A stretch of DNA of 64,000 nt from Acanthamoeba sp. SK_2022b (lineage: Eukaryota > Discosea > Longamoebia > Acanthamoebidae): contig JANDJZ010000269.1 in assembly GCA_027943245.1 (NCBI GenBank), positions 1 through 64,000 on the forward strand, in the 5' to 3' direction. The position numbers and the translations under genes were made by a program. Positions 7,750 through 20,858 of this stretch are shown in pieces. The notes under the pieces are model-generated. The model was not told the DNA's origin, searched no databases, and saw nothing but the letters and a program-made list of their open reading frames with translations. Within the stretch, counting starts at the first letter, position 1; each line of letters begins with the position of its first letter.

Positions 7750-9746
7750 ATGGAAGGCGCCCCCGTTCGGTGGCGAGAGATCCCCTGCGAAGAAGCTACT
7801 GCCGAGCTTAGAGGAGGTGGAGGGCCAACGCGACGCCACTGTCACACAGCAGTTGTGTGCCATTCTGCTTCCGGAGGACCCGCGCTGTGCATCTATGGCG
7901 GCTTCGGCCGTGATCGGCAACCTCTCAATGACCTTTTCCTCTTTGACTTACGTTCGTATTGTTCCACTCTGTGGTCAAGTTGTTGTTGGAAAGAGGTTTG
8001 TTTGACAACAGACGGAAAACGTTCAACGCAGGGAAGGGCGAATGGCGCGAGGTGAAGAAGGCCAAGGCGACGCAGGAGGGGCGGCACTCGCACACGGCCG
8101 TCGTGTGGCGCGACTCCATGTTCGTGTTTGGCGGCGCCACTGCCGATTCCAGCGGTGTCCCCTCTGGCCAGCTGCTGGAGTTCAACTTCCGTGCGCTCTC
8201 CCATTTGTGGCCTTTTTCCATTTCAATTATTATTTATTTTTATATTTATTTTTATTTGTATACATTTATTTTTAAAATCTTTTTTATTGTGTATTGGCAC
8301 AGGGAAGGCGGCTTGGTCGGAGGTGAAGACCAAGGGAGACCAACCGAAGCCTCGCTGGGGCCACTCGGCCGTGCTTGTCGAAAGCGGCGAGGATGGTGAA
8401 GACGGCGGCGCGATCATGTGGGTCTTTGGCGGATTCACCTCGACCGGCGTCGACAACGATCTCTTCTGCTTCCACTTCCGTACACACTCCCCCCGGCGCC
8501 TCGGGACTGACGGGTCATCTGGGCCCAAGGCTAATGATGATGGCGGTGATATCATTACCATCATCATCATCATCAGGCTCGAAGACGTGGGAGCGCGTGA
8601 GCCCCGACGGTGGCCCGTCGGCGAGGCACCTGCACTCGGCCGTGGTCGCTCCCGACGGCGAGAGCATGGTGGTGGTGGGCGGCTTCAGCGGGTCCGGCTC
8701 AGTCAATTTCGGAGACGCATTCCGCTTCCATTTCGGTACGGCTCGTCGCGTGGTTCAGTCGGTGGTTGGTAGGTGGTGGCTGATTGATGATTGACGGTTG
8801 ACGGTTGACGGTGGGTGGGTGGTGATGACGATGAATGAAACAGGCACGAGGAAGTGGCGGGAGCTGGAGGTGCCGGCCAGTTTCACCGGGAGGCGTGGCC
8901 ACAGCGCGGCTGTTGTTGTGCCGAGCGCCAGAAGTGGTGGCGTGATGGTGGTGCACGGAGGCACCAACAAGACCGGCCCTCTCGGCGACATCCACCTCTT
9001 CCGTTTCGGTGCTCGTCCGAGACGTCAACGCGCATTGCTCTTCACAACGCCTGCTTACTGATCTGTCTGTCGCTCTCGGTCGGCGCCGCTTGCACAGAGG
9101 ACGAGACCTGGAGCCACGAGAAACAGGAAGCCGCATCAACGGAGGAATGGCCATCGGCGCGCTATTTCCACTCGCTCACTCCTTGGGCTGGTCGTCTCTG
9201 GGTGCGTTCATTCTTCTTATTCTATTATTAATAATAGAATAATAAATAATAAATAATAAATAATAAAATGAGTAATTCATGATTACTGGTTCGAGCGCAG
9301 ATGTTTGGAGGCATGGGCGTGGACGTGCTCAACGACGATGGCAAGTCGCGTAACCTGTGCGACCTCTACCAATTCTGCTGTCCCGCAGCTGCCGATGGTG
9401 GTATGCGAAGCCGCACTCCTCGCACCTCAGGTGGACCGCCCCAAAAACCAAGCGCACACATGTTGGACTACACAGAGAGCGGAGAGGGCGCGTATTTCCA
9501 TGAGTTCACCGGCGGGTGGGCCGACGAAGAAGCACAGCCGCCCACAGGCGGCAAGACGTGGTGGACGAACAAGCGCACGGTGGACTTTGTCAGAGTGTTG
9601 CCGGCAGAGCTCTCGCTTCACATCCTGTCGTTCCTGCCCGTCGCCGATGTGGGAGCCACTCTGCCGCGCGTGAGCAAGGCCTGGCAACGGTACCTTGGCA
9701 CGCGCGCACGCATCGATCACCGCGCGACCACGAGTCTTATTCGTTC

Positions 9747-9819
<73 letters not shown>

Positions 9820-10577
9820 AGGTTCGTGGAAGACGATGCGCTCTGGCGCGACGCTGTCGCCGCGTTCGAACAGGACGTGGCCCAGGGCAAACTCAGCCAC
9901 GTCGAGGCCACGCAAGGCAAAGAACAAACGATCAGCTGTAAGGCGCAGCTGAAGATAGGTCTCGAGAGCAACCCGTTCCGTGATACGGCCCACTCCTTCC
10001 ATTCAGTTTTTGTCATTATCACTATCACTATCACTATCATTATCATTATCATTATCATTATCATTATCATTATCATTATCATTATCATTATCATTATCAT
10101 TATCATTATCATTATCATTATCATTATCATCAATTTCGTCAGGTCAGAGTTGCTAATGTGTGTATATGTATTCCATTGCAATGCAACACGAGTGCGTTAC
10201 GAAAGCCCGGTGCCTCACCCTGCGGCACGTGATTACAAGAACGGCGGGGAGATCAAGGCGGTGATCCTTGGTGCCGGTGCGCAGGCCCAGCCCCGCTCTT
10301 CACGCCTCGGAGTCGAGCGGTCCTTACCGCGCGCCCTTGTGATGGAACGTGTGCAGGCGGAGTGGGCAAGTCGGCGTTGACCATCATGTTCATCCAGAAT
10401 CACTTCATCGAAGAATATGACCCCACCATCGGTTCGCAACCCCCCCCCACCCCAGTGAACGATCATCATTACATTCGTTCCTTGCTCATCGGAGGTTCCT
10501 GACAGAGGACAACTACCGCAAGCAGTTCTTGGTCAATGACTGCATTGTCCTGATGGTTTGTGTGCTTGCGTGGATTG

Positions 10578-11444: not shown

Positions 11445-11802
11445 TCCCTTGGGACAAGCCCCTGTATCAATCATGCGCACCACTGGCACGGCATTAAAAC
11501 TTTTATTGTGTGGCCCACCAATCCACACAAATCGTCCCTTCATGTCCGCGTGGCGGTGACTTGGCCCAACGGGCAATGGTCAGAGAGCTTTGGGCGAAGT
11601 GGTACTTCGATTACTGAGCTGTCACCTCAGAGCCCCAGGTTCGATTCCTGGCGTCGGCAACACCATCAAGCCGACGTGGTGTAGTGGTAACACACTTCCA
11701 TCCTCCACCTGCCGCGGCCTCTCTGTCTCTTTTGCCGCCCGTGCCATTTTCCTTATCAGAAAAATAAATAAATAAATACAATAAATAACACAAATAAATA
11801 AA
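11445..11802. other. Convergent intergenic gap carrying the permuted tRNA
   Basis: This gap lies between the stops of the Ras-fusion gene and the HTTM gene. Apart from the tRNA-like locus it contains likely 3' UTR, with AT-rich AATAAATA-type runs at about 11760-11800 that could serve as polyadenylation signals for either strand. Confidence 0.5.
11614..11694 (+). tRNA. Circularly permuted tRNA-Asp(GTC) candidate: 3' half precedes 5' half
   Basis: The 3' half comes first. Anticodon arm: CTGAG (11614-11618), loop CTGTCAC with anticodon GTC at 11621-11623, CTCAG (11626-11630). Variable AGCC. T arm: CCAGG, TTCGATT, CCTGG (11635-11651). Acceptor CGTCGGC plus A (11652-11659). After a 10-nt spacer (11660-11669) comes the 5' half. 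Acceptor GCCGACG (11670-11676) pairs perfectly, all seven bases, with the earlier strand. Then TG, and D arm GTGT, AGTGGTA, ACAC (11679-11693), an A box matching the TGGYNNAGTGG consensus, then A26 at 11694. A T4 tract at 11730-11733 could end Pol III transcription. No conventional 5' half lies upstream and no 3' half downstream. Discriminator A73 is unusual for Asp. It sits between two convergent protein genes. It could be a decayed tandem pair. Confidence 0.65.
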
Positions 11803-13395
11803 TTAGGCGGCCGCGCTGGCCTCGGAGGGGAGCTTCTTCGTGTAGGTGTCGGGCAGGGTGGGCTTGGTGTCGTAGCAGACGTGGTGCCACAGCAGCGTCT
11901 TGGGCAGGTCCGTGTGCGAGCCATCGAGGGCCACCCGCCGGGCGAGCCACCAGATCTTGAACTCGTAGATCCGCTCGTAGTAGTCGTGCCGCTTGTTCCA
12001 CTCTCTGTCGCACGCACGCACGCACGCACGACCGATCAGCAACTCTCGGCGCCTCCCGCCTGTGTGCGTAAACGCGAGAACGCGAGAACGCCACGCGCAG
12101 GCAGGGGGGAGAGAGGCACCGGCAGATGTAACGGCCCCAGTAGAGCCGGACGGCGGCGTTCTCGGGGTGGTCGTTGACCTGCTCGTAGAACTTGAACCAA
12201 CGATGGTTGCCCACCGTTTCGGGCACCGACGCCGGCGGCGACCAATCTGCGCCACAACGCGCGCGCGCTGTCTGAGCAACGCTTTTTGATTTGAGAGGTG
12301 GCGACGCGTCGAGGGGCGCGGTACCGCCTAGCGGAACGCCCTTCCACTCGAACATGCCTCGGTCCCTGTGCATCTCCACCGTCTCCTCGTTCACCAGCGA
12401 ACCCTGTGTGGCGACGCGGCACATCACACTGTCAGTGCTATCCTCGCTGCAGTGTGCGTGATGTGTGTGATGTGTGATGTGTGTGTGTGCGAGAGAGAGT
12501 GAGAGAGATGGGGTGGAGTCGCCCTACCTCGATGATGTACCACCAGGAGGCGTCGGGCGGGTGCGGGGAGAACATGTTCCACGCCTGGTCGATGTGCAGG
12601 GCGTAGGCCACCCACTGCAGAGTGAAGAAGCCAATGGTGTCGACATCATTGATTGCCGTTAGTCGCGTAGTCTGGGTGGGGGAGAGGGGGCCGCGAGGAG
12701 AGGGCGAGGCCGAACCCGAATGCCTTGTCGCGGAACCCACCGAGACACGCCGATGTTGTTCATGTTCCTGGGCGCGTTGGTCGAGAGGGGAAAGCAGCGT
12801 GAGCACCACCAACATCGCTAAAGATAACGTAATCCAAAAAAAGAAGGCAAAATAAATAAATAAATAAGTAAATTAACAAATAAATAAATAAATAAATTAC
12901 CAGCCAAAGACGAAGTAGACCAGCCAGAGGCAGAACAGGTTCCGCAACGCGCAGTTCATGACCTTGAGCGTGAACAGGTGCTTGATGTCAAAGACGCGTT
13001 GGTGTCTCTTGTGGAACGATCGAATTCGTTTTCTCGGCCGTGCGTGCTCGTCGCCGCCGCCCTGCGTTCGTCATCGTCACTGTGGTCAGGCCATTGCCCG
13101 CCCATTCACAGAAAGAGAGATTGCATTGGAAAAGAGGAGAGGAGGGAGAGGAGGAGGGGGGCAATACGTTCTCCAGCTTGGCTTCGCGGCGCAAGTCGCC
13201 GAGGCGCCGGCCAAACACAAAGTGGAGGCAGGCCTCGACGACGACGTTGATGCAAAACCCGAAGCGAACCAAGAGGCGAGAGAGCGCGGCCGAGTTGGCG
13301 GTGCGGTGGAGCAGCCAGCCGAGCGGCCACAGCACCGGCGACGCGTTGCAAAGGCTCACCACCGCCCTGAAGTCCACGTGCACCTGCGGCGCGCC

Positions 13396-13458
<63 letters not shown>

Positions 13459-13613
13459 TCAGCGGGGCAAGGGCGATCAGAAAAGGCGCGAAAGCAACGC
13501 ACGTGGCCGTGGTGGTCGACGGCGACCAGAGAGGCATCGACCAGATCGCCAAAGGAACGCGCAGTGCCTGGCCCCCCGCCAGTGTCAACAACTCGAAGAC
13601 GAGTCGACGCGGG

Positions 13614-13682
<69 letters not shown>

Positions 13683-13899
13683 TTGGCCATAATGGAGGAG
13701 AGTCGCTACCTGTGGTGCGATGGCCTCGCTCCTCGTCCCCTTGCCCGTCGCCGTCGTCGGTGTCGTCAATCCGTAGTTCGTCGAGCGGCTTGACCTCGGT
13801 TTCGGGGAACAGGCAGAAGGTGCCCACCACCTTGGCGAAACGCTCGTAGAACCGAAAGAGCGACCGCTCGGTGTAGAACAACTCGAAACGTGTCCTATA

Positions 13900-18529: not shown

Positions 18530-19862
18530 TCAGAGAAGGACGAGGGTGTGCGCCTTGCCTGCGGATATGGCCACCGGCGCTGTGGGCAACGTCAGGGCGG
18601 GCAGTGAGGTGGTCGTGGCTGTCGGGCTGGCGTGGTCCTGAAGCAGGCCGTTGGCAAGCTGGCCGTGGTCGCCGCACCCAAACGCGTAGAGCCTGAGCCC
18701 TTGGCCGGGCACCTCGACCAGCGCCAGCCCGTGTTTGGCCCCGCACGCGATGTCTGGTAGTGCACACGCATTAGGTGAGTAGCAAGTTGAGGAAAGCTCG
18801 CCTCGAGAAAGACGTGTAGAGGACGGAAGATGAAGAGGGGGAGTTTGGGAAGAGGGGGGGGGTACCGCGCACGACGCCATGAGTGGGGAAGGCGACGGGG
18901 GTGGGCGTGAAGCAGTTGTTCTCGTCGCCCAGACCCAGCCGTCCGCTCTTCCCCAGGCCAAAGGAGAGCAGCCTGCCCTCGCGCGTCAGCAGCAGACAAT
19001 GCCCTTCGCCCGCACGCACAGCTGGCCCGTTGAACGGAGGAGAGCGGGGAACGAGTCAGCCACCACAGTCATTGAGCAGAGAGGCACGGTGGTGGTAGTG
19101 GTAGTAGGCGGGAGCGGTACCGGTGATTTCATGCTCGAGCTCGAGCGCAGAGGGCAGGAGCACGAAGCGGGCCTGGCCCTCGGTGAACTTGGGGAACTCG
19201 GAGTAGTCGAGCCCGAAGAAGAACACGCGGCCCTTGTCGTCGAGCACCAGCGTGTTGGCGCTGCCGCACGCGATCGACACGATCCGGTTCTCGGCCAGGG
19301 CTTCGATCAGGGTCGGCCGCAGCCGCTTGTATCGGTCGCCGTGCCCGAGCGCGCCCATCACTCCCGCCCCGAACGAATACACGCGGCCTGTGTCGGCCAG
19401 GTCGATCAACCAAGCAGTCGGCCACGCACGTTTGGGACAGCTGGAGACATAGGTTATACCTTGGGCGGTGAGTAGGAGGCTATGAAAGTAGCCGGCGGCG
19501 ATGTGTTCGATGACGGTGGCCTCTGGCGCGTCGTCGCCCTGCTCCGGGTGTGGAGGAGGCGGTGGCGCCGACGGCGACGCGCAACCGTCGAGGACGATCT
19601 CGCGCGGCAGGAGCTGGTCGCGCTCGTCGCCGTGACCCAGACGACCAAACATGCCGAACCCGAACGAGTAGGCCTTGCCGTCCCTGGTCAGGGCCAGCGA
19701 GTGGGTCGTCCCCGCCGACACCTTGGCCACGCCCGCTGTGAGCGTGTCGAAGAAGGCGATGCGCCGTGGCTCGAAGCAGGTCACCTCATTGCCATGGCCC
19801 AACCGACCATGCTGTCCGTTGCCAAACGAGAAGACCTGCGTGGCCCTCTCACGTTTAGTATG

Positions 19863-19928
<66 letters not shown>

Positions 19929-20858
19929 AATGCGGGGCGCCGCTCGAAGCAGCAAAGGCACTCTCGAAACGTACGCTTCCTCCCTCTGTCAGCACGAGCG
20001 AGTGATGGCCGCCAGCGGACACGGCAACAGCTCTGTGAGCTGGACGATCGTCGTTGTGCGGTGGAGCCACGGGTTGGGTGATGATGGAAGGGGAGAGGGG
20101 TGAGCGAGGTGCACTTGGCGCGAGAGGTGGATGCGCGGAGAAAGTGGCGAAAAAGATAAGGTTATCCAGCACAACCACGCCAACGATCGACTTCTCGACC
20201 GAATTGGCCGCTGGGTCCATAAACCCTCGCCATTGGGCGAGCGGTTGCATGCGCACCTTCCAGGGCGCGAATCGGTGTGAGGACGGAGAGTTGGGTAACG
20301 GCATCGCCGTGGCCCAGGCTTCCGTGCTCGCCGCCGCCGGCAGAGAGGACGACCCCACGCATCATACGCTTCTGCAATACGGTGTCCCCCGCCAGGGCTC
20401 GCCATCGCCTGCACAGAACGAGCGTCAGCAGGCGGCCAGGTCAGGGGGTTGGAGACGCGTCAATAGGACCGAGGGAAGAGGCAACAAGTGTGTGGCACGC
20501 TGCGTGTTGGTGAGAGGGTGTGCAGGAGAGATCGTGTGGTGTGTCTTTGATGTCAAGTGCGTGGGGTGATGCGCACGATCACGAAAAGAACGGAGGAAAA
20601 ACACTTAACCCAGTCGGCACCTGCGGTGTCCCCGCACACCGGCAAAAACCAGGTGTGTTGCAGGCCGAAACAGGAAGAAAAATATTTTAAAAAATGAAAA
20701 AAAACAGACAGGAGCAACACAGAGCAACACAAGAGGGGGGGGGGGCAACAAGAACAGAGCACGCACCTATTGACGAGGGCCAGTCGGGGAAGGTCCCGCC
20801 AGGAGAGACCGCAGCAGAAAACGTGCGCCAGGAGTTCATCCACCAGCATGTCGCCCAT
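18530..20858 (-). CDS. F-box and RCC1-repeat protein
   Basis: From the ATG at 20858 the first exon encodes an F-box (MLVDELLAHVFCCGLSW, DLPRLALVN). A long intron then joins in phase to RRWRALAGD, which completes the F-box. RCC1 blades follow across several exons: GGEHGSLGHGDAV, VFSFGNGQHGRLGHGNEV, YSFGFGMFGRLGHGDE, VYSFGAGVMGALGHGD, LLSFGLGKSGRLGLGDE and YAFGCGDHGQL, with paired (C/S)AG..HSLxL motifs. The gene ends AGKAHTLVLL. RCC1 propellers bind proteins or GTPases, and the F-box suggests an SCF ubiquitin-ligase substrate receptor. No guanine-exchange role can be claimed. An upstream exon cannot be excluded. Confidence 0.8.
19864..19927. repeat. (GT)n microsatellite in RCC1-gene intron
   Basis: A dinucleotide tract inside an intron of the minus-strand RCC1 gene. 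It reads CA on the sense strand, near the acceptor of the exon encoding VFSFGNGQHG. Confidence 0.9.

Follow-up and report, generated by a model that had tools for sequence, protein, structure and literature searches.

The window analysed here (the whole stretch of 64,000 nt) corresponds to contig C438 of an Acanthamoeba assembly, which contains 45 Mb in 1129 contigs. Its proteins include RFX and RCC1 domains which pass the Pfam cut-offs; Kelch and F-box domains give weaker matches under theirs. Because of these domains we take the contig to be eukaryotic. The organism-named matches of the RFX-domain protein are from Acanthamoeba castellanii str. Neff, and the best of them covers 26% of the query with 86% identity. 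The window also has long CA/GT-type repeats which extend across several open reading frames (9717–10181, 12958–13849 and 19855–19961). Contamination of the assembly is evident from other contigs, some of which have bacterial-type arrays of tRNA genes with encoded CCA: The genes of this type in C1005, C961 and C1108 (loci L005, L006, L007 and L042) are probable bacterial contamination.

The locus which concerns us contains two complete tRNA halves in swapped order, which together form a perfect cloverleaf. Its features are the following:

11562–11573, plus strand: leader, A-box-like sequence TGGCCCAACGGG of putative function, at a distance of 76 nt from the downstream B box in the 3' half
11593–11659, plus strand: tRNA match in ordinary order, formed by a degenerate 5' part (11593–11613) and the 3' half (RF00005, 30.4 bits, gathering cut-off 29)
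11609–11618, plus strand: leader side of an HBh'-like motif (GAT at 11609–11611, bulge TA/C, TGAG at 11615–11618)
11614–11659, plus strand: 3' half, tRNA positions 27–73, with the anticodon GTC at 11621–11623 and A73 at 11659
11638–11648, plus strand: B box GGTTCGATTCC within the 3' half
11660–11669, plus strand: spacer of 10 nt which separates A73 from position 1 (direct reading)
11670–11694, plus strand: 5' half, tRNA positions 1–26, with the A box TGGTGTAGTGG (direct reading, permuted-core model, ARAGORN and scanner)
11695–11702, plus strand: trailer side of the HBh'-like motif (C, TTCC at 11696–11699, ATC at 11700–11702)
11730–11733, plus strand: TTTT, a possible Pol III terminator which lies 35 nt past the end of the 5' half

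The layout of the two halves and the 10 nt between them is read directly from the sequence. The 3' half starts with the anticodon arm (CTGAG CTGTCAC CTCAG) and the variable AGCC, followed by the T arm (CCAGG TTCGATT CCTGG), the acceptor strand CGTCGGC and A73. The 5' half contains the acceptor strand GCCGACG, T8 and G9, the D arm (GTGT AGTGGTA ACAC) and A26. All 21 stem pairs are Watson-Crick: seven of seven in the acceptor, four of four in the D stem, and five of five in both the anticodon and the T stem. With the numbering and the invariant positions that we take as standard, the conserved residues T8, A14, G15-C48, G18G19, A21, T33, T54T55C56 and A58 are present. The swapped order, the gap of 10 nt and the fully paired acceptor had been pointed out in an earlier note on this DNA, and the sequence agrees with them.

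When the halves are rejoined in normal order (71 nt), ARAGORN identifies a tRNA-Asp(gtc); on the unrearranged window of 64,000 nt it makes no tRNA call. Several features of a circularly permuted tRNA gene are found: The 3' half comes first on the same strand, a spacer links the acceptor ends and the cloverleaf is complete. The earlier note had proposed a permuted tRNA-Asp gene. Its permuted architecture is confirmed, while the Asp identity is doubtful and the leader-trailer pairing it suggested is not supported, as described below. On the sequence evidence, it appears to us slightly more probable than all other explanations together that the permuted tRNA gene is genuine, with GUC as its anticodon and a 26/27 junction.

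Chance is very unlikely to have produced this arrangement, since a scanner for the permuted geometry, with a threshold of at least 6/7 acceptor pairs, finds nothing when it is run on 3.84 Mb of window sequence shuffled in blocks; we have discarded this explanation. In 363,836 bases of real sequence (the window and overlapping loci) the scanner finds six distinct matches. Four of them have 7/7 acceptor pairs: the locus described here and others in contigs C416, C112 and C754. The remaining two (L019 and L048) are weak, with 6/7 pairs.

We have also used a permuted-core covariance model, which includes the T arm, 3' acceptor, spacer, 5' acceptor and D arm, and was trained exclusively on ordinary tRNAs, 15 from the same genome, with artificial spacers. 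The locus scores 55.3 bits. A high score in this model is no proof by itself, because adjacent ordinary tRNAs reach up to 40.8 bits. In fact, the matches over 30 bits in L052 (40.8), in a place common to L007 and L042 (37.0), in L042 (31.3) and in the phage array L127 (37.3) are all read as adjacent ordinary tRNAs, and have been rejected as permuted genes. Other ordinary tRNA genes, in L020, L023, L077 and L054 (C627, C664, C242 and C554), form loose clusters or inverted pairs of the same tRNA, with at least several hundred bases between them. The model scan covered loci which hold 42 of the 61 D-arm pattern matches; the number of permuted elements is a lower bound, and the genome may contain more of them.

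The high scores of tandem tRNAs speak in favor of a different origin: The locus might be the functionless debris of a tandem tRNA pair, in which the 3' half of the first copy and the 5' half of the second copy are left, the outer halves having been eroded. We consider this explanation rather unlikely. None of the tandem arrays passes the scanner, while the locus has a 7/7 acceptor; a seven-pair acceptor across the spacer is what distinguishes the permuted elements from the two best chance matches, with 6/7. All stem pairs are intact, and the halves meet at 26/27 without a gap, no more than three letters being common to both sides. The trailer does not show a residual 3' half by plain similarity (2416 of 3974 background stretches are equally similar).

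The upstream side is less clear. The earlier note stated that no ordinary partner halves lie nearby; this is contradicted by the RF00005 match at 11593–11659, which is in normal order and reaches the Rfam cut-off, a point in favor of tandem debris. The match is poor: Only 5/7 acceptor pairs are formed, the D arm is collapsed and ARAGORN finds no gene in this sequence. By plain local similarity, the stretch upstream of the core is not above background as a residual 5' half (its similarity to the 5' half is equalled by 248 of 3976 background stretches and by 460 of 4000 shuffles). Such a degenerate 5' part is compatible both with an origin from a tandem pair and with tandem debris. We have also considered whether this colinear sequence might itself be a real, odd tRNA gene, the downstream 5' half being a stray fragment. 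This would explain the score above the cut-off. Nevertheless, two acceptor mismatches, a missing D stem and the rejection by ARAGORN make it extremely improbable, all the more so as the downstream half gives back a 7/7 acceptor and a perfect D arm. In the C112 element the colinear Rfam tRNA match is weaker, 21.8 bits, under the cut-off.

Sequence searches have found no parent copy of this tRNA in the genome, which also argues against debris. A search with 161 bases of the locus finds only the locus itself, and the 26-nt 3' end of the tRNA has no second place in the genome with up to three mismatches. Matches to the 21-nt 5' end exist at three other loci, all without a tRNA according to ARAGORN; one of them is the permuted element in C416. 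Import from a virus or phage was considered as an origin and set aside: An exact 33-nt pattern from the 3' half is absent from the viral contigs, and the only viral contig which has 20 nt of the 5' half in common, L127, is read as ordinary tRNAs in tandem.

The decoding identity of the joined tRNA is another matter. A pattern with the Asp anticodon loop and the T loop is found in 19 places in the genome: 17 ordinary tRNA-Asp genes, the permuted locus, and a place in C398 where ARAGORN finds no tRNA. This supplies the comparison with ordinary tRNA-Asp genes that the earlier note had asked for. They have a different body and all 17 end in G73, so A73 is indeed atypical, as the note had remarked. 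Anticodon GUC, C38 and the ARAGORN call point to Asp. On the other hand, the expected G73 is replaced by A73 and, among 42 distinct tRNA sequences collected for comparison, the closest one is tRNA-Glu(CTC), with 51 of 72 positions. For these two reasons the Asp identity is doubtful. The best matches in phage records are Streptomyces phage tRNA-Asp genes (78%). As a tRNA-Asp, the permuted gene would be redundant, given the 17 ordinary ones.

The position of the junction depends on how the sequence is read. Since ACT is present on both sides, the cut could be located at 25/26, 26/27, 27/28 or 28/29, four registers which are equivalent by sequence. The 26/27 break proposed previously is compatible with the data, and it is the only one of the four registers which offers a relaxed HBh'-like motif. 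In this motif the leader pairs with 11696–11702; the H helix has 3/4 pairs (a mismatch and one G-U) and the h' helix has three. A motif of this quality is found in 323 of 20,000 random flanks. We consider it a better candidate than the helix between GAAGTG and CACTTC suggested before: These sequences are complementary, but three of the four fold lengths include both of them, and in each of these three their pairing has a probability of 0.0. A different leader-trailer helix which we have proposed, 11581–11586 with 11720–11725, is predicted when the fold starts at 11577, not at 11545. It was rejected as evidence, its strength being ordinary (257 of 2000 shuffles and 264 of 2000 background pairs are as strong). 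When the leader includes the A-box-like sequence, the leader-trailer helix is lost and the anticodon arm has a probability of 0.13; in none of the four folds does the D stem form (probability 0.0). For tRNA, folding predicted from free energy is a poor guide.

Several possible transcription signals are found. The A-box-like sequence is the sole match within 100 nt upstream to TRGYNNARN(1-3)GG, which we take as the A-box consensus. This pattern is present in 123 of 4000 random 100-nt stretches and in the 5' parts of 13 of 13 ordinary tRNAs. By eye, no TATA-like sequence is seen within 50 nt of the locus. There is a T run 3' of the 5' half and none inside the spacer; in the non-bacterial tRNA genes compared, the first TTTT is mostly found within about 12 nt, a shorter distance than the one observed here. 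At least one domain of the splicing-endonuclease type is encoded in the genome (PF01974, 34.6 bits).

The locus is not alone. A pattern of the 5' half, the permuted-core model and homology have led us to four related elements in other contigs:

C112, 5105–5400 (L118): permuted element, permuted-core 45.3 bits
C416, 4495–4770 (L104), minus strand: permuted element, permuted-core 43.5 bits
C754, 15601–15897 (L119): permuted element, permuted-core 37.5 bits
C944, 31700–31959 (L113): permuted element, member by homology only (missed by the model at E <= 1 and by the scanner)

A DNA search with the C112 element finds exactly four places: itself, C754 (98%), C944 (80%, over 279 query bases) and C416 (73%). 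The flanks of C112 and C754 are 97% alike over 1769 bases, which suggests that they may be copies or haplotypes. The four elements have in common a leader, CAGAGGTGCTCCAATGCTT (exact in C112, C416 and C754, with two mismatches in C944), a 12-bp leader-trailer helix, a conserved end stretch and a poly-T end. Their acceptor stems pair across 2–4 nt. The common leader, the conserved end and the T run suggest that they are Pol III transcripts of about 270 nt. An A-box-like match lies 78 nt before the B box in C112 and C754; none is found in C416 and C944.

Some of these elements can be read as tRNAs. The joined C112 RNA is a complete tRNA-Glu(CTC), with a junction readable as 26/27 or 30/31. If C416 is joined at 30/31, ARAGORN finds a tRNA-Ala(TGC) with G3-U70, a known alanine determinant, and A73, which together with the anticodon UGC make up the set expected for alanine; it has C33 in place of U33. 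Joined at 31/32 ARAGORN calls it Cys, and at 26/27 no identity is called. The other two have lost tRNA features: C754 lacks one D-stem pair and A73, C944 lacks G18 and C56 and shows, by eye, many CpG-to-TpG/CpA differences. Permuted elements can therefore decay in this genome, which lends some credit to the possibility that the first locus is also debris.

We have analyzed covariation in an alignment of the four related elements, counting 36 pairs of a structure drawn from C112 (leader-trailer helix, T, acceptor and D stems, and 3' hairpin). Standard pairs are found in 99.3% of the 136 cells; slid controls drop to 40–50% paired. Double changes, with both partners replaced, affect five pairs; the acceptor stem and the 3' hairpin have two each and the leader-trailer helix has one. 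Shuffles equal the covariation score in 0 of 500 cases, the number of double-changed pairs in 2 of 500 and the number of pair types in 93 of 500; these figures should not be taken as probabilities, because the structure comes from C112 and only four related sequences are compared. CpG decay acting on both strands can account for one acceptor change, C-G to T-A in C944; it cannot account for the acceptor swap between C112 (C-G) and C416 (G-C). The count omits the leader hairpin, the terminal helix and the anticodon arm, each of which is broken in at least one element. In C416 the leader hairpin has 4/5 broken pairs in this alignment, the terminal helix 2/7 and the anticodon arm, read at 26/27, 2/5; read at 30/31, one of four pairs in the anticodon arm is broken in C754 and C944. 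The existence elsewhere of homologous permuted elements with covarying acceptor stems makes a lone accident at the first locus less likely.

These elements raise another explanation: The locus might encode a structured Pol III RNA which keeps a closed, permuted tRNA-like domain and is never cut to give a tRNA, and the family of C112 and C416 might do likewise. The shared leader, long leader-trailer helix and poly-T end of the four elements fit this idea, as does a 3' hairpin with compensating changes common to C112, C754 and C416. Fold z values are –2.64 for C112 and –3.73 for C416. In these two elements, the ones tested, the bulge-helix motif is absent at both 26/27 and 30/31, and isolated central helices with 3/4 pairs appear at other offsets. 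The first locus does not follow this pattern: Its leader resembles that of C112 only at background level (212 of 2000 stretches are as similar), its T run is nearer, a motif is present at 26/27 and the stability of its fold is modest (z –1.52). The related elements, too, show what look like tRNA features, namely the anticodon loop of C112 and the G3-U70 pair of C416. We think that this explanation is improbable for the first locus, rather more so than tandem debris.

Rfam has no match above cut-off for the C112 and C416 elements, whose RNAs look, from their sequences, like an undescribed RNA family. Matches of the family leader in viral and GTDB contigs (L125 and L126) were attributed to chance: no permuted core is found in them at E <= 0.1. 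The permuted two-piece tmRNA (RF04321) has the same order of T arm, 3' acceptor, spacer and 5' acceptor; in contrast to it, the elements described here have a full D arm and a full anticodon arm. A tmRNA identity was rejected, with 14.9 bits for the first locus and 24.7 for C416 against a cut-off of 47. Other matches to RF04321 under the cut-off, in C730 (41.5 bits, L067) and C36 (34.5 bits, L068), are taken as tmRNA genes of bacterial contigs.

If the locus in the window is a genuine permuted tRNA gene, as we are somewhat inclined to believe, RNA polymerase III would start upstream of the A-box-like sequence, would use the B box inside the 3' half as a promoter element and would stop at the TTTT. 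In the folded precursor the leader would meet the trailer at the relaxed bulge-helix motif. The tRNA-splicing endonuclease would cut at 26/27, the predicted site, and a ligase would join 26 to 27 to give a circle. RNase P and tRNase Z would then excise the 10-nt spacer before CCA addition, as in the pathway published for algae (PMC3978253). The gene is probably derived from a tandem tRNA pair: The outer halves would have decayed, and the degenerate 5' part at 11593–11613 would be a remnant.

Permuted tRNA genes are known from Cyanidioschyzon merolae, prasinophyte green algae, the nucleomorph of Bigelowiella natans and Thermofilum pendens, with 34 genes listed in PMC3978253, which gives spacers from 1 to 74 nt and junctions at 15/16, 20/21, 37/38, 50/51 and 59/60. 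Like these algal, nucleomorph and Thermofilum genes, the locus has the 3' half first on one strand, a short spacer, a complete cloverleaf and a downstream T run, and its HBh'-like motif may have a counterpart in the relaxed bulge-helix junction motif of some listed genes (PMC3978253). It differs from the genes listed there in its 26/27 junction, in its amoeba host, and in having an anticodon already covered by ordinary genes. The algal genes have a TATA-like upstream promoter, in contrast to the A-box-like sequence, a candidate promoter element, in this leader. Auxenochlorella, a green alga, also has nuclear permuted tRNA genes which were not in the original list (PMC12633428). A junction in the anticodon stem at 30/31, as in one reading of C416, is found in the split tRNA-Lys of Staphylothermus and Nanoarchaeum (PMC3218864); the split tRNA is made from two separate transcripts, C416 from a single swapped one. 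We have found no title which reports a permuted tRNA gene in any amoeba in the open-access full-text literature, which may miss subscription reports. An amoeba genome paper used tRNAscan-SE, and its main text does not contain any "permut-" word (PMC11702301).

A wider proposal may be made, tentatively and with odds that we consider to be against it: This genome would have several permuted tRNA genes, few in number (GUC in C438, CUC in C112, and UGC with G3-U70 in C416), whose order was swapped by the decay of tandem pairs. Some of them would be driven by an A box in the leader and a B box in the 3' half. They would be joined at 26/27 or 30/31, outside the published list. The C112 and C416 tRNAs would be contained in a conserved Pol III RNA of about 270 nt, where a long leader-trailer helix would replace the bulge-helix-bulge motif.

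If the permuted reading is correct, the presence of such a gene in an amoeba, together with relatives at differing stages of decay, would show how permuted genes arise: from a tandem pair by loss of the outer halves. The locus would also show that transcription is still possible when the promoter boxes are swapped. Finally, it would mean that programs which look for tRNAs in ordinary order, as ARAGORN in this case, can overlook tRNA genes in protists other than algae.
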